A DNA stretch of 41,704 nucleotides from the NCBI GenBank assembly GCA_023150345.1, contig JAKLLB010000029.1:1-41704 (forward strand), read 5' to 3'. The notes under the pieces are model-generated. The model made no database searches. It saw only the letters and a program-made list of their open reading frames with translations, and was not told the origin of the DNA. Of this stretch, positions 451 through 33,141 are shown piece after piece (within the stretch, counting starts at the first letter, position 1; every line of letters begins with the position of its first letter). This stretch comes from Aquabacterium sp. Lineage in GTDB: Bacteria > Pseudomonadota > Gammaproteobacteria > Burkholderiales > Burkholderiaceae_C. Position numbers and translations under genes: made by a program.

Positions 451-860
451 GGGCGCCGCCTCATGTCCATCAAGACGGGCGACCGCGGCGGCTGGCCGTC
501 ACGGCAGTAGTTGATGCCGAAGTCGATGGTCTGCCGCCGCGGTGCCTGCACGCCGCCAGCGCCGTAGTTCGGCAACTGCACGCCGTCTTGCCAGAAGCGC
601 ACGTTCAGGCGACTGCAGCCGGGCTGGGCGTAGCGCTTCTCGGTGCTCACGTCGATGTAGATCGGCGTCGTGGCGCTGAAGCGCTTCGAGATCGCGTCGG
701 CGACCTCGCCGACCAGGACCCCGTGGGCCTTGCCGTCGGGTGCGTCCAGGGCCGACAGCATCAGCTGCCTGGCATCGCGGACCTGCAGTCGTTCCTGAGC
801 CATGGCAGTGCTGACAAACAAGGCGCATGCGGCGCCGACCAGAACGGTGATGGCCCTCAT
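447..860 (-). CDS. Small exported protein of the transfer operon, unknown function
   Basis: This 137-aa protein starts with a clear signal peptide (MRAITVLVGAACALFVSTAMA), so it should be periplasmic. The mature part has two cysteines (in QPGCSRL and INYCRDG) that could form a disulfide, and ends in a basic proline-rich tail. I chose the ATG at 860 because it overlaps the traN stop as ATGA; a GTG at 866 would add two residues. Its own stop overlaps the traF start the same way. Sitting between traN and traF with tight coupling implies a role in pilus or mating-pair assembly, but I recognise no named family. Confidence 0.8.
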   Translation of the reverse strand: MRAITVLVGAACALFVSTAMAQERLQVRDARQLMLSALDAPDGKAHGVLVGEVADAISKRFSATTPIYIDVSTEKRYAQPGCSRLNVRFWQDGVQLPNYGAGGVQAPRRQTIDFGINYCRDGQPPRSPVLMDMRRRP

Positions 861-3328
861 TGGCACTTCCCCTGGCCGTAGTAGCAGGTGGGCACGCGGC
901 TGGCGCTGCCGGCCTGCAGCGCGTTGACGTTCGGCAGGGTCGGCACCAGCGACGCGTAGAACTCCGACAGGTCCATCGCAGCGAAGTTGAGCGCCTGCAA
1001 TTGCGCGACGGTGAAGCCGGAGCAGTCGGCGTTCTGCGCACCGCCCCAGCCCTTGCCGATCTGCGCGCGGCCCTGTTCATTGACGATGCGCGCCAGCATC
1101 GAGTTGAAGCAGCACTTCGAGGTGGTGTGCTCGACGCAGGACACGCACACGCCCAGGACCCGGAAGCAGGATGAGCACCAGGTGCCGATCGTGTGGCACA
1201 GCTTGGCGCCTTCCTTCATCGCCAGCTTCCCCTCGTCCTCGTTGCAGGACATCATCGAGAGGACGATGTAGATGATCACCGCGATGGCCAGCGTCCACGG
1301 GTCGAAGGCCACGACCAGACTGTCGCCGGCATACACGGCCACCGATCCAGCGGGCAGGGCGGCGCCATTGACCGCCACCGTCACGCCATAGGTCGTGAAC
1401 GTGCCGCTGAAGCCGCCGCCCATCAGCAGCGCCGAGATGCCCTGGTAGATGAACTGCTGGTTCTGCGAGTTCATCAGCACGTCGAAGACCAGACGCGAGC
1501 CGCCGCCGAAGATGCTCTGGTTCGTCATGCCGGCGCCGGCGCCGTCGGCGTAGCAGCAGTTCTTCAGCAGGCGGTCGCGGCAGCGGTTCTCCTCGCCCTT
1601 GAAGACCTGCATGCGGTCGGCGTCCAGGTAGATGCCTGCCTCGCGCCCGGCCTCGAGCATCGACATGCTGCGCGCAAAGTCGGGGTCGTTCGGCGCGCCG
1701 ATGTCGAAGCAGTTGCCGCTCAGGCAGAAGACGTTGGTCGGGCAGTTGCTGGCGGTGGTGACGGTCTCGGCGGGCACGGGGCAGCTGTAGCCGTCCTCGA
1801 ACACCTCGCACAGGCCGGTGACGGCATTGGTCTGCCGGCAAGTCGACGACTGCGGCGTGCAGCCTGCTGCCACCAGCGGTGCGCACTGGTCGGCCGACGC
1901 GCCGCCGCTGCACGACATGGTGCTCCGGTACTCCCAGCAGTCGCGGGTGACGGCCACGCCGTCGACGACCTTGGTCGCCGGGCCATCGGTGCAGACGGCG
2001 GGCGAGGTCGTGGTGCAGCGACCACCGACGTCCAGGGTCGGGCACTGGTCGTCCCAGCGGTCGGTCTCGGTGACGGTGGTGGCTGGCCGCGTGTAGGACA
2101 GGCGCATCGTCGGAATCGGGCCGAAGGCGGGGTTGGGCGCCCAGCCGATCACGGCCCGGTCGGCGTCGATGTTCCAGTAGGTGCCGGCCACGGTGCCCGT
2201 GATGTCGATGCCGGCGTAAGGCGTCCAGCCGGGAGCGGGCGCGTAGCACTTGGTGCCGTCCAGGGCGGTGGTGGTGCAGCCGCTGTCGCCCTGGCAGACG
2301 GTGTCCTGGATGTTGTCGCCGCTCTGCGTGCCGGCACGGCAGGCGGCGTAGACCTTGAGGAAGGGCTCGACGCTGGTGCAGCTGTAGCCGGAGTCGCCGC
2401 CACCGGTACAGACCTCGGCGCGCTCCGGGGCCACCATCGCAGTCAGGCTGCAGGTCGATCCGCTGCAGCTCTTGTCGGCCACCCAGACGGCCGTGCGGAT
2501 GGGCTGGCCGTCGATCATCGAGTAGGTGGTGTCGAGAACCGACACGATCTGCGGGAAGACGACCGGCGTCGTCATGTCCACGTCGAAGAAGCTGAGCGGA
2601 TTGCCGTCCTGGGTGACGCGGAAGTGCTGCGCGGTAACGGCGCGGTCGGGCAGGCACTGCACGTCCAGACCGGTGCGGCCGGAGGCCGCATGGGCGAACC
2701 AATCGCCCGGGTTGCAGCTGGTGGTTCGCGTCGTGCTGACGGTCAGGCTTCGGCTGCAGCTGTAGTTGCCGACGCCGACGTAGCGCAGGCAACTGCGTGG
2801 CTGCATGCCGGCGGGCACCGGGGTAACCGTGGTGGTGCAACCGCTGTAGTAGGCGGCCAGGCTGCCCAGCTCGGCCGATGGCGTACGGCCGATCGCGCGC
2901 GCGGCAGCGACGGCAGGGTCATCCGCGCCGACCGCCGTGCGCGGGGTGTTGGCCGAGGAGAAGGCGCCACGCTGCGCTTGGCAGAGCGGGTCGGTGGGGG
3001 TCAGAGCACAGGCAGATAGTCTCGCGCTGCCCTGCGACGACAGGTTGGGCTGGCGGTAGTAGCTGCGCTCGGGAGGGGTCGTCGTGTAGCCTGGCACCAC
3101 AGCGGTGGCGCCCGGGGTGGTGACGTTGCCGCGGGCAATCGGGTTCGCGGCCTGGCCGGCGGCGACCCCCTCCTCGTGCGGGCCGGCCACGGCGGCGGTC
3201 TGCGTTGTCAGGAAGCAGGCGGCGGTCATGCAGCCGACGAAGCGGCGCCACGGCGACGCGTGGCTCGCCGTCGATGGCGGCGGGGCAGGGCGGTGGCTAT
3301 CGGGGCCTGGCGGGGTGAGGAGAAGCAC
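857..3328 (-). CDS. traN: TraN, mating-pair stabilisation outer-membrane protein
   Basis: A very cysteine-rich 823-aa exported protein, the hallmark of F-type TraN, the outer-membrane adhesin that stabilises donor-recipient contacts. It has an N-terminal hydrophobic segment ending AVAGP (residues about 34-49), a long variable middle with many paired cysteines, and a C-terminal region with a hydrophobic stretch (LAIAVIIYIVLSMMSC) followed by a dense cysteine cluster and the conserved DCSGFT...LQALNFAAMDLSEF-type tail. The start is a GTG at 3328 with only a weak ribosome site; an internal ATG at residue 34 would still give a signal peptide. The cargo methyltransferase frame overlaps its first 103 bases. 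It is separated from trbC by about 7.6 kb of cargo. Confidence 0.92.
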   Translation of the reverse strand: MLLLTPPGPDSHRPAPPPSTASHASPWRRFVGCMTAACFLTTQTAAVAGPHEEGVAAGQAANPIARGNVTTPGATAVVPGYTTTPPERSYYRQPNLSSQGSARLSACALTPTDPLCQAQRGAFSSANTPRTAVGADDPAVAAARAIGRTPSAELGSLAAYYSGCTTTVTPVPAGMQPRSCLRYVGVGNYSCSRSLTVSTTRTTSCNPGDWFAHAASGRTGLDVQCLPDRAVTAQHFRVTQDGNPLSFFDVDMTTPVVFPQIVSVLDTTYSMIDGQPIRTAVWVADKSCSGSTCSLTAMVAPERAEVCTGGGDSGYSCTSVEPFLKVYAACRAGTQSGDNIQDTVCQGDSGCTTTALDGTKCYAPAPGWTPYAGIDITGTVAGTYWNIDADRAVIGWAPNPAFGPIPTMRLSYTRPATTVTETDRWDDQCPTLDVGGRCTTTSPAVCTDGPATKVVDGVAVTRDCWEYRSTMSCSGGASADQCAPLVAAGCTPQSSTCRQTNAVTGLCEVFEDGYSCPVPAETVTTASNCPTNVFCLSGNCFDIGAPNDPDFARSMSMLEAGREAGIYLDADRMQVFKGEENRCRDRLLKNCCYADGAGAGMTNQSIFGGGSRLVFDVLMNSQNQQFIYQGISALLMGGGFSGTFTTYGVTVAVNGAALPAGSVAVYAGDSLVVAFDPWTLAIAVIIYIVLSMMSCNEDEGKLAMKEGAKLCHTIGTWCSSCFRVLGVCVSCVEHTTSKCCFNSMLARIVNEQGRAQIGKGWGGAQNADCSGFTVAQLQALNFAAMDLSEFYASLVPTLPNVNALQAGSASRVPTCYYGQGKCQ

Positions 3329-4257
3329 GCCCCATGGTCAGCGGCGGCCCGGTCGGTGTCCCGGGGAAACGGTAGGTGAGAGAGTGGGGTTTCGAGGCTG
3401 GCCAAGCCTTGGCGAATGGCTGCGCCCCAGCGCTTTACCCCCTTCACGCCATTAGCCTTCGCCTTCAAGACGAGGGGCCCATCTTCCGCGCTTCCGATCC
3501 TCTCACGTGCGCACGCCCTCAATCGTTGCATTGCGGTTGACGAGAGCGTAGCGAACAGTTCACGCAGGCGCGGGCTCCCATGCGCGGTTCGCCAATACTC
3601 ATCGAAGCTCTCGAAGGCGCGGCTCACCTCGAACTGGCGGGTCTGCACGTCCGACAAGCCGGCGTTCTGCCAGAGATGCTCCGATGCCTGCAGCGTTGCC
3701 GTCCAGGCACTGGGTGGCGGCTGTGACCGGTAGCCTTCGGCATGCACGGCATCGAGAATTGGCTGCAGCGGAAAACCGCCGCCGGCAAGGTCCCAGTGAT
3801 AGGCGGCAATCGTCCCGCCGGCTTTGACCACACGCACCAGTTCGCGCACGCCTTGTGGCGGGTCTGGCAGGAAGAAGAGGACCAAAGCCATGACAGCCGC
3901 GTCGACGGACGCGTCCGGCAGCGGCAATGCCTGGGCATCCCCTTCCATGAAGCGAACTGAGGCAGTTGCCACCCGCTGGCGCGCGAAGTTCAGTTGGGCT
4001 GGAGCCGGGTCTACGCCAACCACTGACGCGGGATGTCGATGCAACACGAGCGACTGGGTGAACGAGCCATCACCGCAGCCGTCGTCAAGCCATGCCAAGC
4101 CATGCGGAAGCGCCAGCCAGTCCAGGAACGGCTGCGCCACCAGCGCGCTCCAACGTCCGATCATCAGTTCGTATGCGGCACCATCGTCGAACACAAATGG
4201 CGGCGGGGCAGGTGCCTCGGCGGGCCATGGCGCAGTTGCATTGTTTGACGGACTCAC
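3226..4257 (-). CDS. SAM-dependent class I methyltransferase with chimeric C-terminus
   Basis: A 343-aa frame with a UbiE-like methyltransferase core: motif I DDGCGDGSF (58-66), the acidic ribose-binding GVDP (about 81-84), and an AGGTIAAYHWDL segment after strand 5. Substrate unknown. GTG start at 4257 with GGGAGG nine bases upstream. The family homology ends near residue 275 (KANGVKGVK); the last ~68 residues are arginine-rich, look non-native, and run into traN in another frame. I infer that the natural stop was lost at an insertion junction near 3420-3435. It is divergent from the LysR gene with only 17 bases between start codons, so that regulator probably controls it. Confidence 0.8.
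   Translation of the reverse strand: MSPSNNATAPWPAEAPAPPPFVFDDGAAYELMIGRWSALVAQPFLDWLALPHGLAWLDDGCGDGSFTQSLVLHRHPASVVGVDPAPAQLNFARQRVATASVRFMEGDAQALPLPDASVDAAVMALVLFFLPDPPQGVRELVRVVKAGGTIAAYHWDLAGGGFPLQPILDAVHAEGYRSQPPPSAWTATLQASEHLWQNAGLSDVQTRQFEVSRAFESFDEYWRTAHGSPRLRELFATLSSTAMQRLRACARERIGSAEDGPLVLKAKANGVKGVKRWGAAIRQGLASLETPLSHLPFPRDTDRAAADHGACFSSPRQAPIATALPRRHRRRATRRRGAASSAA
3382..3401 (-). promoter_or_regulatory. 20-base motif upstream of traN
   Basis: CCAGCCTCGAAACCCCACTC on the minus strand; matches 17 of 20 bases of the segment at 25092-25111 upstream of the pilus operon. Located 54 bases before the traN GTG. Confidence 0.4.
3403..3417 (-). promoter_or_regulatory. 15-base motif upstream of traN, overlapping a palindrome
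   Basis: ATTCGCCAAGGCTTG on the minus strand, one mismatch to the copy upstream of flhD. It overlaps the 13-base palindrome GCCAAGCCTTGGC (3401-3413) and directly adjoins the 20-base motif at 3382-3401. Together they look like the native promoter/operator region of traN. Confidence 0.4.
3418..3435. other. Probable cargo/backbone junction
   Basis: The methyltransferase similarity stops at about 3432, while the element-type motifs upstream of traN begin at 3417. The insertion boundary therefore falls in these few bases. I see no mobile-element end or obvious target duplication here. Confidence 0.45.
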
Positions 4258-4274
4258 GCGACACTGCCTCCCAC

Positions 4275-5282
4275 ATGGACAAGCTCAAGGCGATTCAGTA
4301 CTTCCTCGCTGCTGCACAAGGCGGCAGTCTCTCGGCCGCGGCGCGACAGCAAGGCGTGACCTTGCAGGCCGTAGCGAAGCTGATCAGCTCGCTTGAAGCG
4401 GAACTCGGGGCCACGCTGTTCCAGCGCGGCAGTCGCGGACTCCAGCTCACCGCAGATGGCGCGCAGTACGCCGAAGCCTGCGCCCCATTGCTGGCCCAAT
4501 TGCAAGCGGCCGACGACGGCCTGCGGCAGGCGAGGCAACGACCACAGGGAACCCTGGTCGTCGGTGGCACACCGTTCCTTCTGCAGCACTGCATCGTCCC
4601 GGCACTGTCGGGGTTCCATGCGACCTATCCGGACCTGTCGCTCGACCTTCGCACCGTGCTGCACCTCGAAGAGCCAGCCGCGAAGGACTGCGACCTGCTG
4701 CTGTTGCATGGCTGGTTCGAGGCCGGCAGCTGGGTGCGCCGCGAACTGCCGGTGATGGCGCAGGTCACCGCAGCCACGCCGGAGTATTGGAAGCGCCAGG
4801 GCTTTCCCCGCCACCCGCGCGACCTCGCCGACCACAACTGCCTCAGCTACCGAAATCCCTACGGCAAACTGCTGGACCTTTGGCGGTACCGGCAGGCGGG
4901 GCCGCAGGGCGAGGTCGTCGAAGAGGTGGTGGTGCGAGGGTGGCTGACCTCCAACCACCGCGACAACCTGCTCGCGCTGGCCTTGGATCACGGTGGCGTG
5001 ATGCGCATCGCGCCGGCCACGGCGCAGGCGGACTTGGCGAGCGGCCGCCTGATCGCAGCGCTGCTCGACTGGGAGATGATGGACCCGCCGCCGCTGGCCA
5101 TGTACTTTCGACCCGAACTGCGCCGGACCTTGCGCCTGCGCGTGTTCGCCGACTTCGCTGCCGTGCACTGCACCGAGCTGGCCCAGATGACCAGCGCAAA
5201 GGGGGAGGCCAGCGTGGACGGGCGGCCGGCCTGGCACCACGGCAACAGCCGACGCGCCTCCAGTTGGTTGAGCCACCGCTGA
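4275..5282 (+). CDS. LysR-family transcriptional regulator (cargo copy 1)
   Basis: A 335-aa protein with an N-terminal winged helix-turn-helix (MDKLKAIQYF..., recognition segment SLSAAARQQGVTLQAVAKLI, residues 2-60) followed by the periplasmic-binding-protein-like effector domain. The frame is open far upstream, but the ATG at 4275 gives the canonical LysR N-terminus. It is divergent from the methyltransferase and convergent with the Bug receptor gene, ten bases away. Closely related in style to the LysR at 9651: both start MD[KH]L[KR]AI[QR]YF and share the unusual VAKLI core, so the two probably arose from one ancestor. Ligand unknown; a substrate of the neighbouring receptor is a natural guess. 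Confidence 0.88.
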   Translation: MDKLKAIQYFLAAAQGGSLSAAARQQGVTLQAVAKLISSLEAELGATLFQRGSRGLQLTADGAQYAEACAPLLAQLQAADDGLRQARQRPQGTLVVGGTPFLLQHCIVPALSGFHATYPDLSLDLRTVLHLEEPAAKDCDLLLLHGWFEAGSWVRRELPVMAQVTAATPEYWKRQGFPRHPRDLADHNCLSYRNPYGKLLDLWRYRQAGPQGEVVEEVVVRGWLTSNHRDNLLALALDHGGVMRIAPATAQADLASGRLIAALLDWEMMDPPPLAMYFRPELRRTLRLRVFADFAAVHCTELAQMTSAKGEASVDGRPAWHHGNSRRASSWLSHR

Positions 5283-5296
5283 GCCCCTGTGCTCAG
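5279..5296. terminator. Small symmetric hairpin at convergent stop codons
   Basis: CTGAGC (5279-5284) and GCTCAG (5291-5296) form a perfect six-base inverted repeat with a six-base loop. It spans the stop codons of the convergent LysR and Bug genes. No T-tract follows on either side, so it is at best a weak bidirectional terminator. Confidence 0.35.
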
Positions 5297-6255
5297 TCGA
5301 TGCTGGCGCCCGTCTCGCGGACGAACTGCACGTATTGTGCTTCCGCCTGAAGCATCAGCTCGCGCGTCTCGGCCGGCGACCTGAGGCCGCCGACGATGAG
5401 CAGGCGCTCCATCTCCTGCTTGAACTCGGTTGACTTGGCCGCATGCTGCGCGGCCGCAGCGAGGCGGTCGACCATGTCGGATGGCAGCCGCGGGGGGCCG
5501 AGCACGAAGTGCGCGGTGATCAGCGGGGCCGCGGAGACGCCGGACTCGACCAGGGTCGGCACTGTCGGCAGCGCGGGGATCCGCTCGGCCATGCTGCAGC
5601 CCAGCAGCGTCAGGCGGCCAGCTTTCACGTGCGGGATGCTCGCGCCCACCGGTATCACGGCGGCCTGGATCCGCCCTTCGAGCAGGTCGGGAAGCAATTG
5701 CGGCGCGCCTTTGTAGGGCACCCGCTCGAACGCGACGCCGAAGGTGCCGCTCACCTGTCCGGCCACCATGTCTTCCGAGACGTTGTTCGCCCCGCGCAAG
5801 AGCGGCTTCGGGCTGGCCTTCGCGTAGGCAACGAACTCGGCGAGTGACTTGACCGGCAGGCCAGCCGTCACCACCAGGCACTGCGTGTTGCCGCCAATCG
5901 CGGCGACTGGCGTGAACTCGGCAATGGACTTGTAGGGCGAGGCCTTGCTGAGGTGCGGCAAACCGGCGTTGGACGCCAGCCCGAAGAACAGCGTGTAGCC
6001 GTCGGGGGCGGCGTTCAGGACGGCGCCGGCTGCGATGCCCGTGTTGCCACCGGGCCGGTTTTCCACCAGCACTTCTTGCCCGAGGCTGGCGCTCATGCCT
6101 TTGGCGAGGACTCGGGCCGCCGCATCGCTCGGGCCTCCCGCAGGCGTCGGGACGATCAGGCGGATCGCCTTGCTGGGATAAGCTGTTTGCGCGCCCGACG
6201 TGGCCATCCACAACGTCAATGCGCCGACAACAACGCCTCTCGAGAATCCGTTCAT
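5293..6255 (-). CDS. Tripartite tricarboxylate transporter-type (Bug) substrate-binding protein, copy 1
   Basis: A 320-aa protein with a signal peptide (residues 1-22) and a typical Bug-family (TctC-like) fold: YPSKAIRLIVPTPAGGPSD at the N-terminus, ENRPGGNTGIAAGAV, and APDGYTLFF. These proteins capture carboxylates or related solutes in the periplasm. A ribosome site (GGAG) lies seven bases before the ATG at 6255. No TctA or TctB membrane genes are in the window, so this is an orphan receptor that may serve an unlinked transporter or a sensing role, as many betaproteobacterial Bug proteins are thought to. Convergent with the LysR gene. Confidence 0.9.
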   Translation of the reverse strand: MNGFSRGVVVGALTLWMATSGAQTAYPSKAIRLIVPTPAGGPSDAAARVLAKGMSASLGQEVLVENRPGGNTGIAAGAVLNAAPDGYTLFFGLASNAGLPHLSKASPYKSIAEFTPVAAIGGNTQCLVVTAGLPVKSLAEFVAYAKASPKPLLRGANNVSEDMVAGQVSGTFGVAFERVPYKGAPQLLPDLLEGRIQAAVIPVGASIPHVKAGRLTLLGCSMAERIPALPTVPTLVESGVSAAPLITAHFVLGPPRLPSDMVDRLAAAAQHAAKSTEFKQEMERLLIVGGLRSPAETRELMLQAEAQYVQFVRETGASID

Positions 6256-6334
6256 CTGCTACTCCGTGCTGTGGATGGGCACAGTGTTGCCGGGCAAGAT
6301 GCTCATGGGAAGTGCTCGGCAGGAAGAGGCTGAC

Positions 6335-6430
6335 TCAACTTTCGGTTCAGTCAGCACCATGAAGCTGACCATTCGCCCGGAACTGTCGATTGGTCTGAGG
6401 TTCCTGTTGCTGCATCAACTTCTGGTTCAG
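6335..6430. repeat. Two near-identical 16-base repeats 80 bases apart
   Basis: TCAACTTTCGGTTCAG (6335-6350) and TCAACTTCTGGTTCAG (6415-6430) match at 14 of 16 positions. The first is part of an imperfect palindrome, TGACTCAAC-N5-GTTCAGTCA (6331-6353). They lie in the 256-base region between the divergent Bug gene (start 6255) and the small membrane protein gene (start 6512). They could be regulator binding sites; no regulator is assigned. Confidence 0.45.
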
Positions 6431-6511
6431 AGTCGCCTCAACAAGTCGTGTCTTCTCGAAGCTGGCCCGCGTTCGGATGATGCGGCTCATCGACGTTGCG
6501 ATGAGGGCCAC

Positions 6512-6832
6512 ATGAACACGACAACTTCCGATGTTCGAGAACTCCCATCTGCCACAAGCACCTATCTCTCGGTTCTGACGTGGCTGTTCACGCTGTTCAA
6601 TTCGGTGCGGGTACTGGCCTACCTGCCAACCCTGGTGGCCATCTTTACCAGCGGCGACAGCAGCCAGCATTCGCTGCTGACCTGGGTCACGTGGGTTGGA
6701 GCCAATGCCACGATGGCGGCCTGGCTTTACGAACACAACGGGCGACACCTGAACCGAGCCATCGCCGTCAACGTCTGCAACTCGATGATGTGCCTTGCGA
6801 CATCGATCCTCATCGTGGCCTACCGACTTTGA
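6512..6832 (+). CDS. Small three-helix membrane protein, PQ-loop/SemiSWEET-like (copy 1)
   Basis: A 106-aa protein with three predicted membrane helices (about residues 20-47, 53-72 and 82-105). It is 57% identical over 89 residues to the protein at 7133-7456 on the other strand. Features resemble bacterial SemiSWEET half-transporters: about 100 residues, three helices, YLPT in helix 1 where SWEETs have a proline-containing FLPQ-like motif, SLLTW opening helix 2, and asparagine-rich NVCNS in helix 3. This family call is inference from pattern only. ATG at 6512 has GAGGG just upstream; the frame is open further 5' but without similarity to the paralogue. It is divergent from the Bug gene. Confidence 0.7.
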   Translation: MNTTTSDVRELPSATSTYLSVLTWLFTLFNSVRVLAYLPTLVAIFTSGDSSQHSLLTWVTWVGANATMAAWLYEHNGRHLNRAIAVNVCNSMMCLATSILIVAYRL

Positions 6833-7132
6833 CACACGGTTCCGGCTGCGGAGGCTGAATGCGGCCCGGGATCGGCGGTCAAGCGGCGGCCAGCACGGGC
6901 TGCTCCTGCAGCGCCCCGACGACCGGAACGGGTCGAGTCCACCCGTGTACGAAGGGCAACTCCCGGGCAGGCCAGCGTGGACGACTGGTCTGCGGCGGCG
7001 AACCTCGGTACCGGCCGGGCATGTCGCGACCCAAAAGTGCCAATCGAATGGCAGACAGTCGATGTCGGCTTGGAGGCCAGGGGCGCTGCGACAGGGCCTG
7101 TCCGCCGTAACGCGATCCGCGGGCGATACGAG
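6833..7132. other. Non-coding stretch between convergent paralogues
   Basis: Three hundred bases between the two convergent small membrane protein genes. Open frames here are short and lack any family signature or similarity to the paralogues. I see no strong terminator, tRNA or mobile-element end. It may mark the point where the two halves of the cargo block were joined. Confidence 0.4.
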
Positions 7133-7456
7133 TCAGAAGCGAAGAACGGCAATCAGCACCGTGGTGGTCATGCACATCGCGGAGTTGCAGGCATTGACGG
7201 CGACGGAGCGTGTGACTCTGTGCCCTTCCTGCTCGTAGAGCCAGGCCGCCATCGTCAGATTCGCGCCTGTCCAGATCAGCCACGTCAGCAGGGAGTGCTG
7301 CCCGGAGTCACCCACCGACCCGATCACCCACAGCGTTGGGAGGTACGACACCAGGCGGGCCGCATTGAACACGCCGAACAACCATGCCATCAAACTTAGG
7401 TACCGCGTGCGCAGCGGCGCCGAGGGCGCGGCGTGGACAGTCAGGTGGTTCTGCAT
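7133..7456 (-). CDS. Small three-helix membrane protein, PQ-loop/SemiSWEET-like (copy 2)
   Basis: A 107-aa paralogue of the protein at 6512-6832. The conserved blocks are YLPTL in helix 1, GDS-QHSLLTW leading into helix 2, TMAAWLYE at its end, and NACNS-MC in helix 3. The three hydrophobic segments and length suit a PQ-loop half-transporter, but this is inference. It is the last gene of a minus-strand unit Bug, O-methyltransferase, small membrane protein, starting 12 bases after the methyltransferase stop, so the three are probably co-transcribed. No signal peptide. The solute, if any, is unknown. Confidence 0.75.
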   Translation of the reverse strand: MQNHLTVHAAPSAPLRTRYLSLMAWLFGVFNAARLVSYLPTLWVIGSVGDSGQHSLLTWLIWTGANLTMAAWLYEQEGHRVTRSVAVNACNSAMCMTTTVLIAVLRF

Positions 7457-7468
7457 GCCACACCTGCG

Positions 7469-8533
7469 TCAGGTGCGCGCCGCGCCGCGGCGGACGTCCA
7501 GCACGCTCCACTCGGCGCTGGCCTCCCGCACGCCTTCAAGCACCAGGCCCGCCGCCGCGAAGAGACGGACGAACTCCTCGAGGCTGCGCTCGCGGCCGCT
7601 CAGGCTCACCAGCATGTTCAGGTCGGTTCGCGCGACCTCGCGGTCGCGGGTCGAATGCCCAGGAGCCTCCGGACGAACACGCTCGATCACCATCAGCCTG
7701 GCCCGGCTCGACATCGCCTCGAGGCAGCGCGCGAGGAGGCGTCGGCAAGCCTCGTCGTCCCAGTTGTGGAGCACGCTCTTGAGGAGGTACATATCGGCCC
7801 CGCCGGCAACGCTGGCGAAGAAGTCTCCCTCCTCGACCCGGCAGCGGTCTGCCACGCCCCAGTCCGCCATCAGCGCACTTGCGCCTCGCAGCGCCACGGC
7901 CTGATCGAGCAGAACGCCATGCGCCTCCGTCGCCTGCCGCAGGACGGCGCCCAGCAATGCGCCTTGCCCGCCGCCGACATCGACCACCGACCGGACCGCC
8001 CGCAGTTCGAGCGCCGCCACCAGGGCGGGCGTGGCATGCCGGGTCAGCTCGACCATGGCGTGGTGGAACACCTCGCTGGCCCGTGCGTCGGAGGCCAGCG
8101 CCTGGTAGCCACCCATACCGTGGTGCCTCTCGGGCCAGCTGGCGCCAGTGCGCACGGCCTCGGGCAATTCCGCCAGGCGCTGCCACAGGCCTGAGCCGGC
8201 GTGCTGGGCCCAATGGTGCAAGGATTGCGACGCATCGCGGCACAGCAGTCGGCCCATGCCCGTCAGCCTCCAGTGTCCGGCGGGCACCGACTCGCACAGG
8301 TCCAGGGCCGCCATCGCGCGCAACAAGCGAAGCAAGGCATCGCCGTGGCAGCCACAGGCCGCCGCCAGTGCGAGCGCGTCGGCAGGCCGCTGCGACAACC
8401 GGTCCGGCAAGCCGAGCGCACAGGCCGTCCGGATGACCTGCGTCGTCCAGGCCCCGTTGATCATCGCCAGGAGACGGGCCGCATCCTCGGCCTGGGTCGA
8501 CGCGGTCGCGCCCGCTGTGCACGCGTGAACCAT
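7469..8533 (-). CDS. O-methyltransferase family 2 (plant-caffeate / hydroxyneurosporene type)
   Basis: A 354-aa protein with the two-part layout of family-2 O-methyltransferases: an N-terminal dimerisation winged helix (residues about 18-105) and a C-terminal Rossmann domain with VDVGGGQG (184-191) for SAM binding. LKSVLHNWDD (251-260) supplies the expected catalytic histidine, His256. Known members methylate hydroxyls of phenolics, carotenoids, polyketides or phenazines; the substrate here cannot be told. The ATG at 8533 is nine bases after the upstream Bug stop, implying one operon with it and the small membrane protein. The cargo's other methyltransferase (3226-4257) belongs to a different family. 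Confidence 0.88.
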   Translation of the reverse strand: MVHACTAGATASTQAEDAARLLAMINGAWTTQVIRTACALGLPDRLSQRPADALALAAACGCHGDALLRLLRAMAALDLCESVPAGHWRLTGMGRLLCRDASQSLHHWAQHAGSGLWQRLAELPEAVRTGASWPERHHGMGGYQALASDARASEVFHHAMVELTRHATPALVAALELRAVRSVVDVGGGQGALLGAVLRQATEAHGVLLDQAVALRGASALMADWGVADRCRVEEGDFFASVAGGADMYLLKSVLHNWDDEACRRLLARCLEAMSSRARLMVIERVRPEAPGHSTRDREVARTDLNMLVSLSGRERSLEEFVRLFAAAGLVLEGVREASAEWSVLDVRRGAART

Positions 8534-8542
8534 GCCCGGCTC

Positions 8543-9517
8543 CTAGTCGGCTTTCAGGCCCGCTTCACGGATCAGGCGTCCGAACCGGGCGTGCTCGTCG
8601 CCGATGAAGGCGCCGAACTCCGCGGGCGAGAGCTCGCCCGCCTCGGCACCAGCCGACGCGAAGAACTGCCGCCCTTCCTCGGACGCCGCCACGCGGTTGA
8701 TCTCGCGGTTCAGGCGTTCGAGCACGCTGCGCGGCGTGGCCGCGGGGGCCGCGATGCCCGTCCACCCGATGTACTCGTAGCCCTTGACACCGGCTTCGGC
8801 CATCGTCGGGACCTGCGGCCAGACCGGCGCCCGACGAGATCCGGAGACGGCCAACACGCGCAGCGCACCCGACTGCACATGCGGCCGCAGCGGGGTCAGC
8901 CCTTCGATCGCCCAGTCGACCTGCGAGCCGAGCAGCGCCGTCAGCAGCGCCCCGCCGCCCTTGAAGGGCACGTGGACGGCCTCGATTCCGGCCAGGCGCT
9001 TGAACTGCTCGGCCGCAAGGTGCGGCGGCGTGCCGTTGCCATTGGAGCCGTAGTTCATGGCCCCGGGCCGGGCCTGGGCGCGAGCCACCAGTTCCGCCAC
9101 CGATTGCAGCGGCGAGCCGGCCGGCACCACCAGCGCGAGTTGGCCGATGCCGAAGCGCGCCACCGGTGCGAAGTCGGTCAGCGGGTCGTAGCTCACCTTG
9201 GCGAACAGGTGCGGATTGATGGCTGCGATGCCCTGGTGCGTGAGCAGCAGCGTGTGGCCGTCCGGCGTGGCCCGCGCGACCAGCTCCGCGGCCAGGTTGC
9301 CGCCCGCCGCGGCGTTGTTCTCGACCACCACCGACTGGCCGAGCGCAGCACCGAGCCGTTCGGCCAGCCAGCGTGCGCGGATGTCGGTGACGCTGCCGGC
9401 GCCGCCGGCGATCAGGCGGACCGGGCGGGTCGGCCACTCGGCCGCCTGGGCCGGCCACGCAACGGTCGCCCAGCCCGCGGCGATCAGATTCAAGAAGTGG
9501 CGACGCTGCAGATTCAT
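8543..9517 (-). CDS. Bug-type substrate-binding protein, copy 2, with Tat-like leader
   Basis: A 324-aa Bug/TctC-family periplasmic receptor. Motifs include EWPTRPVRLIAGG at the N-terminus, ENNAAAGGNLAAELV, TPDGHTLLL and NYGSNGNGTPPHLAAE. The leader contains a twin arginine (LQRRHFLNLI) before a short hydrophobic segment ending PAQA, so export could be by Tat. The ATG at 9517 is preceded by AGGGAG; the frame is open upstream but that part has no family similarity. First gene of a three-gene operon, divergent from LysR copy 2. As with copy 1, no TctAB partners are present. Confidence 0.9.
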   Translation of the reverse strand: MNLQRRHFLNLIAAGWATVAWPAQAAEWPTRPVRLIAGGAGSVTDIRARWLAERLGAALGQSVVVENNAAAGGNLAAELVARATPDGHTLLLTHQGIAAINPHLFAKVSYDPLTDFAPVARFGIGQLALVVPAGSPLQSVAELVARAQARPGAMNYGSNGNGTPPHLAAEQFKRLAGIEAVHVPFKGGGALLTALLGSQVDWAIEGLTPLRPHVQSGALRVLAVSGSRRAPVWPQVPTMAEAGVKGYEYIGWTGIAAPAATPRSVLERLNREINRVAASEEGRQFFASAGAEAGELSPAEFGAFIGDEHARFGRLIREAGLKAD

Positions 9518-9558
9518 GGGAACTCCCTGGTCATCCGATGGTGTGAATCTAGGCGGCG

Positions 9559-9587
9559 AACGCCCGGACCGGAATGCTCCGGGCGTT
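9559..9587. promoter_or_regulatory. Perfect 10-base inverted repeat in the divergent promoter region
   Basis: AACGCCCGGA (9559-9568) and TCCGGGCGTT (9578-9587) are exact reverse complements with a nine-base spacer. It lies between the divergent Bug and LysR genes, nearer the Bug start. Could be an operator or an mRNA leader hairpin for the Bug transcript. Confidence 0.6.
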
Positions 9588-9596
9588 GGCACACCT

Positions 9597-9613
9597 TTCA
9601 ACCGATGGTTGAA
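9597..9613. promoter_or_regulatory. LysR-type operator: palindrome TTCAACC-GAT-GGTTGAA
   Basis: A perfect seven-base palindrome with a three-base centre, positioned 37 bases before the LysR start at 9651 and 79 bases from the divergent Bug start. It contains the T-N11-A arrangement typical of LysR-family sites, so it is the best candidate for the recognition site of the adjacent regulator. Binding is inferred, not shown. Confidence 0.6.
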
Positions 9614-9650
9614 TGCCGGAGACTTCGTGCCAGCGTGACAGAGGAACCCC

Positions 9651-10646
9651 ATGGACCACCTTCGTGCGATCCGTTACTTCGCCTCCGCGGTCGAGGGCGC
9701 AAGCCTGTCGGCGGCGGCGCGCCGGCATGGCGTCAGCGTGGCCGCCGTCGCCAAGCTGATCGGCGCCCTCGAGGCCGACATGAAGATCCAGTTGCTGGCG
9801 CGCAGCGCCAGTGGTGTCGCGGCCACGGTACCGGGGCGTGCGTTCCTGGAGATGTCCAGGCCGGCCCTGGAGCAGCTGGACGACGCCATGGAGCAGGCCG
9901 CGGCCTCGGCCACCAAGGCGCAGGGAACGGTGGTCGTCGGCATTCAGCCGGTCATCGCCCAGGAAGTCCTGACGGCCGCGCTGCCCAAGTTCTGCGCGCT
10001 GTATCCCGACATCCAGATCGACGTGCGCTACTTCATGACCATGAACGAGCTGCAGGACCGCAGCCTGGATGCGATGCTCGTGATGGGCTGGCCGCAACAT
10101 GTCGGCGATCTGGTGGCGCGACCGCTCGGTGCGACGACATTCGTCGTCGTCGCATCACCCGGCTACTGGGCCGCGCACGGAACTCCGAAGCACCCGGCGG
10201 ACCTCGAGGATCACAACTGCCTGTGCATCCGCTCCAACACCGGTTCGGTGATGGACCTGTGGCACTTCAGGCGCGGCGCCGAACGGGTCTCGGTGGCGGC
10301 GCGGGGTTCGTTCATCGTCGACAACGCCCATCGCGACATGGTGCGCGACATGGTGCTGTCCGGCGTCGGGGTGGCACGTCTGCTCGACTGGCACCAGCGC
10401 CCGGGACGCGAGGTGGCGCGTGGCCTGCTGGTGCCGGCGTTGACCGACTGGGTCGTCGACGAAGTGCCGCCCGTCAATCTCCTGTACGCCCCCAGCGTTC
10501 GGCGCACGCCGCGCGTGCGCGTCTTCCTCGACTGGGTGGTGCAATTGTTCGCCGAGGTCGAGCGTGATCGCGTCAAACCTCTTCCCGCTACCGACATGCC
10601 GCGGTGGGCGAAGATGAAGCGTCGGCGCGCCTCGGAAACCAGCTAG
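9651..10646 (+). CDS. LysR-family transcriptional regulator (cargo copy 2)
   Basis: A 331-aa LysR regulator: N-terminal winged helix (MDHLRAIRYF, SLSAAARRHGVSVAAVAKLI, residues 2-60) plus a C-terminal effector domain. A ribosome site (GAGGAA) lies a few bases upstream of the ATG. It is divergent from the Bug/O-methyltransferase/small membrane protein operon and shares with it a 133-base region holding two perfect palindromes, so it very likely controls that operon and itself. It resembles the LysR at 4275 in both domains (for example PADLEDHNCL here against PRDLADHNCL there). A short inverted repeat (10650-10670) just after the stop may help termination. Confidence 0.9.
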   Translation: MDHLRAIRYFASAVEGASLSAAARRHGVSVAAVAKLIGALEADMKIQLLARSASGVAATVPGRAFLEMSRPALEQLDDAMEQAAASATKAQGTVVVGIQPVIAQEVLTAALPKFCALYPDIQIDVRYFMTMNELQDRSLDAMLVMGWPQHVGDLVARPLGATTFVVVASPGYWAAHGTPKHPADLEDHNCLCIRSNTGSVMDLWHFRRGAERVSVAARGSFIVDNAHRDMVRDMVLSGVGVARLLDWHQRPGREVARGLLVPALTDWVVDEVPPVNLLYAPSVRRTPRVRVFLDWVVQLFAEVERDRVKPLPATDMPRWAKMKRRRASETS

Positions 10647-10910
10647 ACGTCGCGGCAACGGACTCCGCGAGACCGGTCGTCCGGGATGACAACTCCTCGA
10701 AGCGTCGATGTTCGAGAGTGGCCGGCACTTTGAGCGCGAGCGACCGCTGTGCGGACGGCCAACGAGAAGTCCCCGGGTTGATCCGAAAGGCAGCTTCGGA
10801 GAACCGCGAGCGGCGGCTGAGGGTCGTCAGGATGTCATGCTCGACGCGGCCCGACCGTCCGCTGTCCGGGCGTTGCCGACTTTGGACGCGAACCGATGGA
10901 GGAGCGGCGT
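10647..10910. other. Non-coding stretch at the right edge of the cargo
   Basis: These 264 bases between LysR copy 2 and trbC contain no credible gene. An inverted repeat TCGCGG/CCGCGA (10650-10670) follows the LysR stop. The right cargo boundary must lie in here; I see no transposon end. Confidence 0.4.
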
Positions 10911-11612
10911 CTACCGCTTCGGCTGAGCTGAACCCTGCGAGCGCCGACTCAGGTACTGCATCGCATAGTCCAGGGTCACATCTCCAGCAACCTTCACAGA
11001 CTGCCGGGGCGAACCACACACGCGGGATGTACAGGCTTCCGTCCCTGCGCGTTCCATGACTAGGACGAATGTCGGCGTCCTCGTGATCCCATAGCGATCG
11101 AATGCTTCCGGATCGATCTGGACGGCAACACGGCGGCCGCCGATTAGCGCCTGCATGCGGGTCACCGTGTCTCTGATCGATCCGTTGACCAACCCCCGCA
11201 GCACGAGCGTCGCGCCCGCCCGCGCTGCCTGGTCGACTAAGCGCTGGAGCGTCGCCTCCGGCATCGCGAAGCTCACGAAGATCAGCACCTTCGGCCCTGC
11301 CTTGCCCGGAGCCATCGCCGATGCATGAGCTCCGTTCTGCACGTCGAAGCCCTTGGAGATGGCCTCGAGGTCGATGGGCATGCGGGTCGCCGGCTGCGGA
11401 AGGCTCTCGATGCGCGGTGTACCCGGAACCGGCACCTTCGCCAGCTCAGCCTCGGTCGGCATCCGATGCTGCTGGCGTGCGCGCTCTATGTCGGCGTCGG
11501 TGACGGCAGGTGGCGTCGCCGGGGCACCCAGCACGCTGCTGGCAAGAAGGAGCGCGGCGACCCCGGCGCCGAGCGCCCGGCCGATGAGCGTGGCCCTGTC
11601 AGTAGCCCACAC
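10911..11612 (-). CDS. trbC: TrbC, F-type pilin assembly protein
   Basis: A 233-aa periplasmic protein with a signal peptide (ALLLASSVLGAPA) and the F-type TrbC domain: PKVLIFVSFAMPEATLQRLVDQAARAGATLVLRGL, then a strand pattern reminiscent of thioredoxin folds ending TRTPTFVLV. TrbC acts with TraW in F-pilus assembly; some elements carry a TraW-TrbC fusion, here they are separate. The GTG start at 11612 overlaps the traU stop by 14 bases. In most F-type clusters traN follows directly, but here 7.6 kb of cargo intervenes, so trbC ends the operon. Confidence 0.88.
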   Translation of the reverse strand: MWATDRATLIGRALGAGVAALLLASSVLGAPATPPAVTDADIERARQQHRMPTEAELAKVPVPGTPRIESLPQPATRMPIDLEAISKGFDVQNGAHASAMAPGKAGPKVLIFVSFAMPEATLQRLVDQAARAGATLVLRGLVNGSIRDTVTRMQALIGGRRVAVQIDPEAFDRYGITRTPTFVLVMERAGTEACTSRVCGSPRQSVKVAGDVTLDYAMQYLSRRSQGSAQPKR

Positions 11613-26529: not shown

Positions 26530-29046
26530 CTACTTGGCCAACTCCGCAAACAGATCGTCCAGCTGCGGATTGCTGGTCATCGGCAGCAGGCGCTTGATGG
26601 TCGATGCCTGGTTGATCTCCAGCCTCGCGTAGTGCTCGCCGCCCGCATTGCTGTGCTTGCGGATCAGCTGAATGCGGCCGAACAAGGCGCCATGCTTCTG
26701 TGCGAACCGGGCCAGACCGACCGCCTTCTCGAAGTTGTCCGAAAGGCTCGGGTCATGGGGTTCGAGGATGTCGACCTCGAAGGACGGGCCCTTCTTCCTG
26801 ACCACCACGAGGTCTGGAAACATCGGCCGGACGTCGCCGCCGGTGTCATAGGGGATCTCCAGGGACCAAGGCTTGCGGTCGACATTCCGCAGCCAACCCA
26901 CCACGTTCTCATTCGCAAGTTCTTCCTTGAGCACGCCCGCCTCCCAGGTGCCCAGCTCGGCCCGGAACTGCCCATTGCCTTCGACGAACAGGTGCCGATC
27001 CCAGATCGGATCCGCCGGCTTGCGACGGAAGTCAATCGAGTCGGGCAGATGCCAGGGCACCTCGTTCGGCGTGGCCGTGGCCAGCCGAAGCTTCTCGTAG
27101 GTGGCGCGCCGATGCTCCTTGAGCTTGTGGATGGACTTCTTGTGCTGGTCATACAGCACGTCGAATGCCGCGGCGGCAAGCTTCTCCAACTCGCCCATCT
27201 GGGCAGCGTCGCGAGCCAGCACGATCGCCTCGACCTTGACATCGACGGCATCGCGCTCCGCGTGCGCACGCCAGTACTCCATCTGCAAGCCATGGCTGAA
27301 GGCCCGGCCGGCTTCCTCGAACAGGCGATCGATGTCGACGCTGGACGCGCCGATCTGATACTCGGCGCCTGGTTCGGCGACCGTGGTCCCGTTCTGGACC
27401 GCCAGGGTACGCAGTCCCACATGCGTGATGGCCTTGGCCGCAGCTTCGAACGCGCCTTCCGCCATCAGCGCTGCGACCCGTTCGTCCATCCAGCTCACGA
27501 TCTGCACCTTGGCCTGGGCCCAGGCGTCCTCATCGATTTCGTCGACAGTCAGGCTTCGGGACATGGCCATGAACCGGCGCAATGGGCTCTGTGCACGCGC
27601 CGCGTTGACCCGGTAAGTCACGAGTTCATCGAGTGCAGCGAACAGGGCATCGGTCCCGTCGCGACGTTGGAGCACCACCAGATCGCGCCCGGAGCCGGTC
27701 TCGGCCGGTGGCACCTCCTCCTGGTTGTGCAGCGCTGCCACGACGCCCTGGACAGCCTGCGTGTCGAAGTACGGCAGGAACAGGTGCACGTCGTTCAATG
27801 CCGCGTCCTTCTCGATGCGCCGCGCCAAGGGCGTACGTACCATCCGACCCAGCAGTTGGGCGATGTACGTGTGATCCTCGGCACGCCGGAAAGACATCAT
27901 GACCTCCGCCCGTGGGCAGTCCCACCCGGTGGAGAGGCTGGTCTTGAAGAACACCACGCCGATGTTCTTGTCCGCATCGATGCGCGAGGCTTCGACCTTG
28001 CGCACGCGCCGGCCGCCCACGTCCAGGTCGCCGGTGTCGTGCAGGGCGTGCGCGACCTCGCCCTCATGGAGGCGACGCCCAATCGCGCTCTCGATCACGG
28101 TCAAGGCGTCGGCCAGGTCCGTCTTGGTCAACTGCCGATCGCTACCGTTCTCGACCTGCACGACCAGGACTGGCCAGACCGTAGCCTCCTGCTCATCCTT
28201 GCAGTACGCACCCCAGGCCATCGTCATCTGGTTCCAGCGGCGGGCGGCCTCTTCCAGCAGGCCCATCTCGGCGGTCGTGGCCGACTCCGGGTGATGGATC
28301 AGGATGCGGTCCTTCAGCAGGCCCGACTTCCGCACCTCCTCTGCCGGGATGGCCACCTTGTGCACCGTATGCGGGGCGTGCTCCAGCAGGTCCATGAAGC
28401 GCTTTGGTGTTGCCGAGACACCGATCACCAGCGGCATCTTCACCAGGCCCGTCTCCGCATGACCGAGCAGAAAGCGCTGCATCAGTGTCCGTGCCGCCTG
28501 CGCACCGCGGCCCGACGTCATGCCGCGGTGGGCCTCATCGATGACGACATAGAAGCGGTCGGGGATCGCGCGTGCCGTGTTGGTCAGCGTCTCCCAGATC
28601 AAGTGCTGACGGCCGTCGCCGCGATTCGTCAGGGGCTGGTTCACCGCCAGCTTCTGTGTGTTGATGAAGTAGACGCGCCCACCCTGCAGCTGAGGAGCGT
28701 CGAAGTGGGCGTCGATGGTGATCAGCTGGTTGACGCGGTAGACCTTGTCGGACTTGCTCTCGATCTTGAGCCGGGTCTGCTCGTTGAGTTCGGGCATGTC
28801 CGAGATCCAGAGGATCACGGCATCCGGCTGCGGTGCCCAGTCCAGCGGCCACGCGAGTTCGTCGTCGGGCTGGTCGAGGATGGCCTCGAAGAGCGCCGTC
28901 ATGATGATCGTCTTGCCGCTGCCCGTGGGCGCAGAGAATGCGATCGCCTGCGGGTTGTCGGTGGTGGCGAACTTGCGTGCCGCGACGATCTTGTCGCGCA
29001 GCTGATGGAGCGCGTCCCGCTGGAAGTCGAAGAGAGAGACCTTCAT
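26530..29046 (-). CDS. res: Type III-like restriction subunit (SF2 helicase)
   Basis: An 838-aa DEAD/DEAH-type translocase. Motifs: Walker A APTGSGKT (39-46), DEAH (170-173), SATP (211-214), STGWDCPRAEVMMSFR (about 372-387) and QLLGRMVRT (397-405). The C-terminal region has MFPDLVVVR...FEVDILEPHDPS (about 742-767), positioned like the PD-(D/E)xK nuclease of EcoP-type Res, but the lysine expected after the acidic residue is absent. It may be a variant nuclease or a nuclease-free effector. The ATG overlaps the mod stop as ATGA, so the two subunits are probably made together. Confidence 0.85.
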   Translation of the reverse strand: MKVSLFDFQRDALHQLRDKIVAARKFATTDNPQAIAFSAPTGSGKTIIMTALFEAILDQPDDELAWPLDWAPQPDAVILWISDMPELNEQTRLKIESKSDKVYRVNQLITIDAHFDAPQLQGGRVYFINTQKLAVNQPLTNRGDGRQHLIWETLTNTARAIPDRFYVVIDEAHRGMTSGRGAQAARTLMQRFLLGHAETGLVKMPLVIGVSATPKRFMDLLEHAPHTVHKVAIPAEEVRKSGLLKDRILIHHPESATTAEMGLLEEAARRWNQMTMAWGAYCKDEQEATVWPVLVVQVENGSDRQLTKTDLADALTVIESAIGRRLHEGEVAHALHDTGDLDVGGRRVRKVEASRIDADKNIGVVFFKTSLSTGWDCPRAEVMMSFRRAEDHTYIAQLLGRMVRTPLARRIEKDAALNDVHLFLPYFDTQAVQGVVAALHNQEEVPPAETGSGRDLVVLQRRDGTDALFAALDELVTYRVNAARAQSPLRRFMAMSRSLTVDEIDEDAWAQAKVQIVSWMDERVAALMAEGAFEAAAKAITHVGLRTLAVQNGTTVAEPGAEYQIGASSVDIDRLFEEAGRAFSHGLQMEYWRAHAERDAVDVKVEAIVLARDAAQMGELEKLAAAAFDVLYDQHKKSIHKLKEHRRATYEKLRLATATPNEVPWHLPDSIDFRRKPADPIWDRHLFVEGNGQFRAELGTWEAGVLKEELANENVVGWLRNVDRKPWSLEIPYDTGGDVRPMFPDLVVVRKKGPSFEVDILEPHDPSLSDNFEKAVGLARFAQKHGALFGRIQLIRKHSNAGGEHYARLEINQASTIKRLLPMTSNPQLDDLFAELAK

Positions 29047-31589: not shown

Positions 31590-31594
31590 ACGAT

Positions 31595-31601
31595 CCTCCT
31601 C
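31595..31601 (-). promoter_or_regulatory. Strong ribosome-binding site for the TTG start of mod
   Basis: GAGGAGG on the minus strand ends five bases before the TTG at 31589. No ATG or GTG in frame nearby begins the conserved N-terminus, so this site decides the start. Confidence 0.6.
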
Positions 31602-31704
31602 GCTTCTTGTTCGGCCGTGTGGCCGTGAGCGTGATTGCAGTTGATACAGACGTCTTTGGTCTGGGGCGCGCCTCGACGTGCAGTTGAGCAGAGTTTGCCG
31701 GAGC

Positions 31705-33141
31705 TCATGAGTTCGATCCCGGCAGCTCAGTGGCGCCCATCCAATAGCAAAGCAGTGGCGCGGGCACTCGCATGACCTGCGTGCCAGCAGCCAGGCCCTG
31801 CATCAGGCCGAAGTCATCGAGCGACTTGGTGACGACGTAACCGCGCTCGATGCGTTTCGATTGGCACAGTTCGACCAGGCCCTTGAGTTCCCGAGCCCCG
31901 GTGTGCTGGGCGCGGTACTTCACCTCGAAGGGAATGAGCTCGCCGCCGACTTCGGCCACCAGGTCGACCTCGTGGTCGCGTTTGCCACGCCAGTAGCTGA
32001 AGCGGACGTTCTGTGCGTAGTACCGGGCAAACAGGTGCTTGAAGACCGCGGTCTCGGTGGCGACACCCAGCGCCGATGCGTCTTCGAGGATGGCCTTGCC
32101 CTTGAGCATGACGGCCGGCGCGATGGCGGCGTCGGCCAGATAGAGTTTGAACCGCGCGCGCAGCACGTCCTTGCCGTAGCCGAACGGGGCCAGGCGATAG
32201 ATCAGGTGCGTGGCCTCGAGCAGCTCGATGAAGTTCTGGGCAGTGGGGCGCTTGACCTCCAGGTTGGCGCACAGGTCCACCATGTCCAGCAGTCCGCCAT
32301 CGTGCATGCACAGGTAGAGGAACGTGTGCTCCAGGTCAAGCACGCGCCGCACGCCGAACAGCGCTGTCATGTCGCGCTTGAGCACCTTGTCGATGATGTC
32401 TTCGCGCAGCAGGCGCTGGGCCTGCGTGATGCTGTCCACCTGGGCGGTCTGGGGAAAGCCTCCGCGCACCAGGTACTCGTGGAAGTGGCCCACGTACGGT
32501 GCGGCCCGTTCCGTGACGCGGTAGAAGTCGGTGGCCTTCCAGTCGAAGAGGTCACGCAGGCTGCGAAGCCGCGGCAGGTCTGGCAGTTCCAGACGCTTGA
32601 TCTGCAGGTACTCGTAGAACGACAGTGTCGTCAGCCGGATGGTGTGCCATCGGCCCACGCCGGACTCCTGGTCGGCTTCCACCAAAGGCATTGCGGAGCC
32701 CGTGAACGCGATGCGCCGGTCCTTGCGGAAGTCGACCTGATGCTTGACCCAGGTGCCCCAGTCACGAATGAACTGGGCCTCGTCCAGCAGCAGGTACTCG
32801 GGGCCGTCGGCGCGCGGCTCGCGTTCGCGCCATGCGTCGATGACCGCATCGATGCCGGCCAGCTTGAGGATGGGATGGTCGAATGTTGCGTACAGGATGT
32901 TCGCGCCTGGCACACCACCGCGGAGCAACGTGTCGGCGGCCTGCAGCAGCAGCGTGGTCTTGCCGATCTGGCGTGCGCCGGAGAGCAGCACCGCTCTCGG
33001 TGCCGGTGGCTGCGTCATCCAGGCCTGAAGCTCGCGAAATGCCGCGCGGCGCCAGGTCGGCAGGTCGGCAATGGCTTCGCCCCTCCACCAGGGGTTGAAC
33101 TGGGCGAGGACGGCGACGAGTTCTTCTTTGGAGACCCTCAT
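31705..33141 (-). CDS. AAA ATPase with DUF4143 C-terminal domain
   Basis: A 478-aa protein of the AAA/DUF4143 family. Walker A is SGARQIGKTT (54-63) and Walker B EYLLLDEAQFI (115-125), followed by TGSAMPL (sensor-like). The C-terminal domain has EVDLVAEVGGELIPFEVKYR, with the spaced acidic residues and EVK of a PD-(D/E)xK-like fold. Such proteins are frequent in variable genome islands; their role is uncertain, with defence or toxin-like roles proposed. It has its own upstream region with an AT-rich, promoter-like stretch (33150-33210). It stands 115 bases before mod. Confidence 0.88.
   Translation of the reverse strand: MRVSKEELVAVLAQFNPWWRGEAIADLPTWRRAAFRELQAWMTQPPAPRAVLLSGARQIGKTTLLLQAADTLLRGGVPGANILYATFDHPILKLAGIDAVIDAWREREPRADGPEYLLLDEAQFIRDWGTWVKHQVDFRKDRRIAFTGSAMPLVEADQESGVGRWHTIRLTTLSFYEYLQIKRLELPDLPRLRSLRDLFDWKATDFYRVTERAAPYVGHFHEYLVRGGFPQTAQVDSITQAQRLLREDIIDKVLKRDMTALFGVRRVLDLEHTFLYLCMHDGGLLDMVDLCANLEVKRPTAQNFIELLEATHLIYRLAPFGYGKDVLRARFKLYLADAAIAPAVMLKGKAILEDASALGVATETAVFKHLFARYYAQNVRFSYWRGKRDHEVDLVAEVGGELIPFEVKYRAQHTGARELKGLVELCQSKRIERGYVVTKSLDDFGLMQGLAAGTQVMRVPAPLLCYWMGATELPGSNS

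Follow-up and report, generated by a model that had tools for sequence, protein, structure and literature searches.

Here we describe two recurring gene modules carried by a 41,704-nucleotide (nt) contig of a draft Aquabacterium sp. genome of 251 contigs (the whole contig is hereafter the window). In the gap between traN and trbC of an F-type integrative and conjugative element, four kinds of gene are each present twice, giving two sets of four: a LysR regulator, a Bug solute receptor, a methyltransferase and a small membrane protein that we call S. The insert spans about 3430-10815. Its best explanation, to which we give a probability of roughly 0.5, is that a cargo slot here holds two solute-capture-and-modify modules, each combining a regulator of one LysR clade with an orphan Bug, S and a modifying enzyme. 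The Bug would capture a small solute in the periplasm, S would pass it across the inner membrane, a cytoplasmic enzyme would modify it (by methylation here, by glycosylation or hydrolysis in sister modules), and the LysR protein would turn the genes on in response to the solute or its product. Both the substrate of the module and the order of events are what we infer.

A preliminary description of the window had reported two sets of the same four gene types between trbC and traN, with methyltransferases from different families. Pfam and NCBIfam matches and the reading frames bear this out, with MT1 belonging to Methyltransf_11 and MT2 to Methyltransf_2 (Table 1). Gene order differs between the sets. 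Set 1 runs MT1(-), LysR1(+), Bug1(-), S1(+), in which MT1 and LysR1 diverge from a 17-nt gap, LysR1 and Bug1 converge, and Bug1 and S1 diverge across 256 nt. Set 2 runs S2(-), MT2(-), Bug2(-), LysR2(+), where Bug2, MT2 and S2 are tightly packed with 9- and 12-nt gaps and LysR2 is divergent across 133 nt. The left junction cuts the 3' end of MT1: homology to other copies ceases at 3439-3440, and the frame continues through backbone to 3226. The right junction zone up to 10816 has no match among the loci compared, the window's own copies excepted, and a scan of the region for promoters and terminators gave no more than in shuffled sequences.

Table 1. Genes and junctions of the traN-trbC slot, in window coordinates (aa, amino acids; SAM, S-adenosylmethionine; AF2, AlphaFold2; AU, approximately unbiased).
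Feature	Position	Strand	Basis
traN, F-type mating-pair stabilisation, left flank of slot	857..3328	-	Pfam PF06986 E 7e-50; NCBIfam NF009012 1258 bits
Left junction	3428..3440		Backbone shared with L092 stops at 3428; set-1 homology starts at 3439-3440
MT1, class I SAM methyltransferase (Methyltransf_11)	3440..4257	-	PF08241 E 8e-23
LysR1, set-1 regulator	4275..5282	+	PF00126/PF03466; LysR tree
Bug1, TctC-family periplasmic solute receptor	5293..6255	-	PF03401 E 4e-45
S1, 106-aa three-helix membrane protein	6512..6832	+	AF2 prediction, fold comparison
Set-1 tail beyond S1	6833..6940		Homologous to L021, L022, L024 (89% nt); not to L004
S2, second small membrane protein, last of Bug2-MT2-S2 run	7133..7456	-	58-65% aa identity to L041, L035 copies; S tree
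MT2, O-methyltransferase with dimerisation domain (Methyltransf_2)	7469..8533	-	PF00891 E 1e-37; PF08100
Bug2, TctC-family receptor, other Bug lineage than Bug1	8543..9517	-	PF03401 E 2e-67; AU test
LysR2, divergent set-2 regulator, LysR1's clade	9651..10646	+	Pfam; LysR tree
Right junction zone	10647..10816		Backbone shared with L092 restarts at 10816
trbC, F-type pilin assembly, right flank of slot	10911..11612	-	TIGR02742 E 2e-32

The module recurs elsewhere, and in the window it rides as cargo among transfer genes, in line with the preliminary description's reading of a module lodged in a transfer operon. Linkage of all four gene types is seen in nine loci beyond the window, eight of them in other genomes. 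Set 1 is complete in four (L004, L021, L022 from Ideonella alba, and L203) and present without S in two more loci (L159, L199). Set 2 is complete in three (L035 from Hydrogenophaga aromaticivorans, L041 from a Methylibium metagenome-assembled genome, MAG, and L204), and all four types occur in other orders in L056 and L067 (Dechloromonas). The regulators belong together. In a careful tree of 64 LysRs, in which 'module' denotes S or a methyltransferase nearby, 28 of the 29 module-near rows fall in one clade (support 100/99), along with two Bug-adjacent LysRs; L030 is the one module-near LysR outside it. For this tree and the Bug tree, loci repeating another locus were dropped (ten locus prefixes). 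A separate observation in this clade is a tandem pair of its genes beside a Bug and a glycosyltransferase (L213:7785-10135).

A profile of the LysR clade, made from 11 rows picked from Bug-adjacent genes and with matches counted at E 1e-85, found members in 9 of the 399 genomes scanned from the order and in 20 of the 399 scanned from the family (the Aquabacterium genome is in both counts); the five best first-look candidates were scored per genome, and clade member counts are lower bounds. A Bug lies within 2.3 kb at all 36 profile-found places, 7 of which are seed genes, and within 500 nt at 33 of them; a methyltransferase stands at 15 and a glycosyltransferase at 6, each within 2.6 kb. Among 53 distinct LysR-clade genes, a set partly gathered through S and so biased toward it, a Bug lies within 2.6 kb in 52, a methyltransferase in 20, a glycosyltransferase in 11, an amidohydrolase in 3 and S in 29; 13 have a Bug alone. 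Bug matches in the 56 S loci number 23, 4, 2, 2, 0, 1 and 0 by successive kb of distance. S itself is patchy, with a match in 7 of 60 relatives. LysR and Bug genes are very common in Burkholderiales (18 of 20 other members of the genus have at least 27-37 scored Bug1 matches), and their grouping might be chance assembly in a cargo slot. That account is already disfavoured, and we judge it very improbable: the two complete sets recur in fixed order in four and three other loci, the regulators form a single clade, and the ratio of nonsynonymous to synonymous substitution (dN/dS) is below 0.4.

Although the regulator and receptor stay together, the accompanying enzyme varies, comprising two methyltransferase families, a glycosyltransferase (that of L076 matches EryCIII-like_C and UDPGT) and an amidohydrolase (L034; PF04909). 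In locus L160 the Bug shares 79% identity with the copy on contig C7 of the Aquabacterium genome and the LysR 76% with LysR1, and the methyltransferase that accompanies them is of the set-2 type (40%); the enzyme is therefore exchangeable. An enzyme is present at 11 of 13 LysR-clade places with S versus 10 of 23 without (Fisher p 0.03, uncorrected for kinship). We hypothesize uptake by trapping, which would be compatible with both the exchange of enzymes and their excess where S occurs. The same enzymes are small-molecule tailoring types, as the EryCIII-like_C and UDPGT matches illustrate, and could belong to a detoxification cargo, whereby a harmful environmental compound is recognised by LysR and the Bug receptor and inactivated by methylation, glycosylation or hydrolysis before S exports the product. 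That the module travels with mobile elements, one of them a Tn3-family element that also has a ParD-type antitoxin, would suit such a role. However, a periplasmic receptor suits capture more than export, and some LysR-clade members adjoin genes read as catabolic, which leaves detoxification a credible but unlikely account. By eye, the LysR-clade members of L190, L192, L194 and L195 stand beside likely hydantoinase subunit pairs and extra Bugs, neighbours that hint at catabolic solutes.

Bug receptors require a membrane partner. Bug1 and Bug2 are TctC-family receptors (PF03401) like that of the tripartite tricarboxylate transporter (TTT), but here no TctA is seen alongside them, and the genes linked to them encode a protein of predicted SemiSWEET fold and a tailoring enzyme. 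No TctA was found among the insert frames beside Bug1 and Bug2, and TctB was not seen there either, although no search for TctB was made. Because one TctA was found in the draft genome, on another contig (G000:C218), against 13 Bug-like matches, Bug1 and Bug2 look like orphans. Bordetella and some other bacteria are described as having dozens to hundreds of Bugs, mostly without a detectable membrane partner (PMC11452294, PMC5994714). In the first of these, homologues of the orphans Bug69 and Bug27 are linked to nadQ and nadC; they resemble our modules in uniting an orphan Bug, a regulator and a metabolic enzyme, and differ in having NAD genes where ours have the LysR clade, a methyltransferase and S (PMC11452294, same excerpts). 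A further parallel is TAXI-GltS of Bordetella pertussis, whose binding protein lacks its customary membrane partner and is linked genetically to an unrelated, unusual membrane carrier, with experimental verification pending according to its authors (PMC12344293). There, the receptor is of the TAXI type rather than a Bug and the carrier is GltS rather than a three-helix protein, and the available text of that paper mentions no enzyme or LysR.

By our reading, S is the sole inner-membrane protein in either set, which makes it a candidate membrane partner for the orphan Bugs; S may itself transport the solute and may cooperate with Bug in doing so. The fold predicted by AF2 is SemiSWEET-like, and Foldseek ranks 1-13 are all SemiSWEET or SWEET structures. 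At the sequence level the resemblance fades. Compared with SemiSWEET/PQ-loop carriers as presented in the available part of PMC5972207, S1 and S2 carry YLPT, that is, PT instead of the PQ of the first helix; PQ does occur in L068 and in two distant proteins, those of L019 and L020. The PQ-loop family of Pfam matches 2 of 55 S family members below its cut-off (best E 0.013, 15.7 bits versus 22), and MtN3_slv appears neither among the 7 families listed with matches to 10 S members nor among the first 25 listed for 55 members. S1 has no Pfam or NCBIfam match over cut-off, S2 has no Pfam match at E 1e-3, and a profile of S against the sequences of solved structures reached only E 0.54 at best. A K_trans match in Pfam (E 0.004, below cut-off), confined to S1, was taken as chance. 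The S alignment (A3) covers 53 of the 56 S loci, with L024, L048 and L060 left out. S may thus resemble the SemiSWEET family in its predicted fold, but its sequence lacks the family's marks.

As a side observation, S is directly preceded in 11 loci (L036, L039, L043, L046, L048, L049, L055, L059, L061, L062 and L063) by a member of a family of small secreted proteins, called at 141-196 aa; three of these loci also have a Bug. A similar-looking protein, with no Pfam match, stands beside the LysR-clade/Bug pair of L211.

An orphan Bug need not transport anything, and could act as a regulatory receptor in a sensing module to which S and the methyltransferase are loosely attached. LysR regulators, however, are cytoplasmic and need an intermediate to read a Bug in the periplasm; none is seen in the sets. 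S is also tightly packed, lying 12 nt behind MT2 in the window and overlapping the methyltransferase end by one base in L204. We therefore consider pure sensing distinctly unlikely, although orphan receptors are proposed, in the available part of PMC5994714, to act possibly in sensing or signalling. The broader suggestion of the preliminary description, a solute-sensing or solute-modifying role, has been made more likely by the wider survey.

The two sets have separate histories. The preliminary description took the LysR, Bug and S pairs to be paralogous, and pictured one module that was duplicated and then diverged in the operon. The LysR pair and the S pair do share ancestors, but the grouping of the 13 set-1 and set-2 type Bugs as one clade is rejected (AU test, p 0.003). 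Identities within the window are low (LysR1/LysR2 38%, Bug1/Bug2 33%, S1/S2 55%; MT1 and MT2 are unrelated), and in trees LysR1, LysR2, S1, S2, Bug1 and Bug2 each cluster with their own type from elsewhere. LysR1 is 87-91% identical to the set-1 LysRs of L004, L021 and L022 versus 38% to LysR2, and MT1 shares 73-77% aa identity with the copies in the same three loci. A second set 1 occurs in the Aquabacterium genome itself, on contig C7 (L004; S 80%, Bug 79%, LysR 87%, methyltransferase 74% identity), and two other Bugs of this genome score above Bug2 as matches to Bug1 (146 and 140 versus 133 bits). Support for joining the set-1 and set-2 types inside the LysR clade is weak (86/23); the Bug tree is a quick one with long branches, and its deep groupings are unsure. 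Local duplication was rejected: paired genes are not mutual closest relatives in the LysR, Bug and S trees, each set is closer to relatives elsewhere, and the AU test and gene order also speak against it. Of the two checks that had been suggested, pair trees and linkage in other genomes, the first fails for the Bugs and the second holds in eight loci. The best reading is that the window holds two independently circulating versions of the module that met in one cargo slot.

As a separate observation, the Zoogloea MAG locus L029 (2-4283) places a set-1 LysR/Bug pair next to a set-2-like Bug/LysR group with S, in the order LysR(+) Bug(-) Bug(-) LysR(+), the same as in the window. Set 1 of L004 lies inside a Tn3-family element (774-11402) bounded by 37-nt end repeats (774-810 and 11366-11402), which also carries the Tn3 transposase TnpA, a ParD-type antitoxin, a DUF3701 integrase and a DUF7685/7686/7713 protein; no target duplication was seen, the bases flanking the two repeats being different (GTAAG and AACAA). 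Set 1 of the window is not an intact transposon of this family, as a search of the window for the 22-nt repeat end, allowing up to three mismatches, found none. Plasmids were rejected as carriers: in PLSDB the single match to S1 is distant (33%), and nothing matches LysR1 at E 1e-60.

The site itself is variable. A TraN search at E 1e-60 hit 15 of 250 genomes of the family, the Aquabacterium genome included, and TraN is 97-98% identical in three further genomes from other genera (L080, L092 and L093). On either side of the gap the DNA of L092 and L093 is 95-97% identical to that of the window, yet the genes inside differ: a peptidase U41 family protein together with a bacterial gasdermin in L092 (14152-16109; PADLOC), and Kiwa KwaA and KwaB in L093 (3591-5122; PADLOC, KwaB also PF16162). 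The traN-trbC gap is therefore a cargo slot, with three elements of one lineage holding three different cargos at one site. The sequence of L080 stops 347 bases beyond the shared stretch and is uninformative on slot cargo. In L094 (TraN 69%) further unrelated genes lie beside traN, which by eye look like a PIN-type toxin pair and a gene for a WD-repeat protein, and no trbC was reached within the 4.6 kb examined; L095, L096 and L097 (TraN 56-57%) have space for trbC and little more. SXT/R391-type conjugative elements likewise have fixed sites between transfer genes where the cargo varies and often consists of defence genes; in the lineage described here, from Burkholderiales, the site is between trbC and traN.

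Kiwa and gasdermin in the same slot of two sister elements raise the question of whether the eight genes provide anti-phage defence, which we regard as highly improbable. PADLOC, run on three of the eight proteins, returned the generic methyltransferase-type mad2 for MT1 and MT2 and nothing for Bug1. A complete set 1 also sits on a 702-kb Ideonella alba contig (L022), and examples of LysR-Bug pairs with known roles serve nutrient uptake. In L092 and L093, the slot can be viewed as a defence-carrying hotspot. The window has a second likely cargo stretch at 26530-33141, where G+C drops to 0.55 at 30-31 kb; PADLOC finds a type III restriction-like pair there (a strong MTase_III at 29043-31589 and a weak REase_III at 26530-29046) and a PDC-S01 family protein at 31705-33141.

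Pairwise dN/dS, computed against two or three relatives per gene, lies between 0.07 and 0.39 for all eight genes and is highest for S2 and MT2. Values are 0.15-0.17 for MT1, 0.07-0.10 for LysR1, 0.15-0.18 for Bug1 and 0.15 for S1, and 0.28-0.39 for S2, 0.28-0.30 for MT2, 0.19 for Bug2 and 0.12-0.14 for LysR2. Because these are low throughout, both sets have stayed working genes along the lineages compared. The low ratio for MT1 concerns its lineage and says nothing on the activity of the end-truncated copy in the window.

Our search of the open-licence literature, in the portions available, found no description of LysR, Bug, methyltransferase and S in combination, in keeping with the earlier statement that no described system of this composition was known. 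The parts are known; we have seen no account of their recurring together with interchangeable enzymes, or of two such modules lying next to each other. The slot of this F-type lineage accepts defence systems as well as apparently metabolic cargo. For how orphan Bugs hand on their solute, the module offers a concrete candidate, testable in named strains such as Ideonella alba 4Y16 and Hydrogenophaga aromaticivorans D2P1. A bolder form of our proposal, to which we give a low probability, would if true explain why enzymes are swapped among unrelated families while LysR, Bug and S remain together, and would give some orphan Bugs, at the least, a partner in the membrane. The finding, whose function we infer, points to an undescribed way in which bacteria may catch and chemically alter a small molecule.

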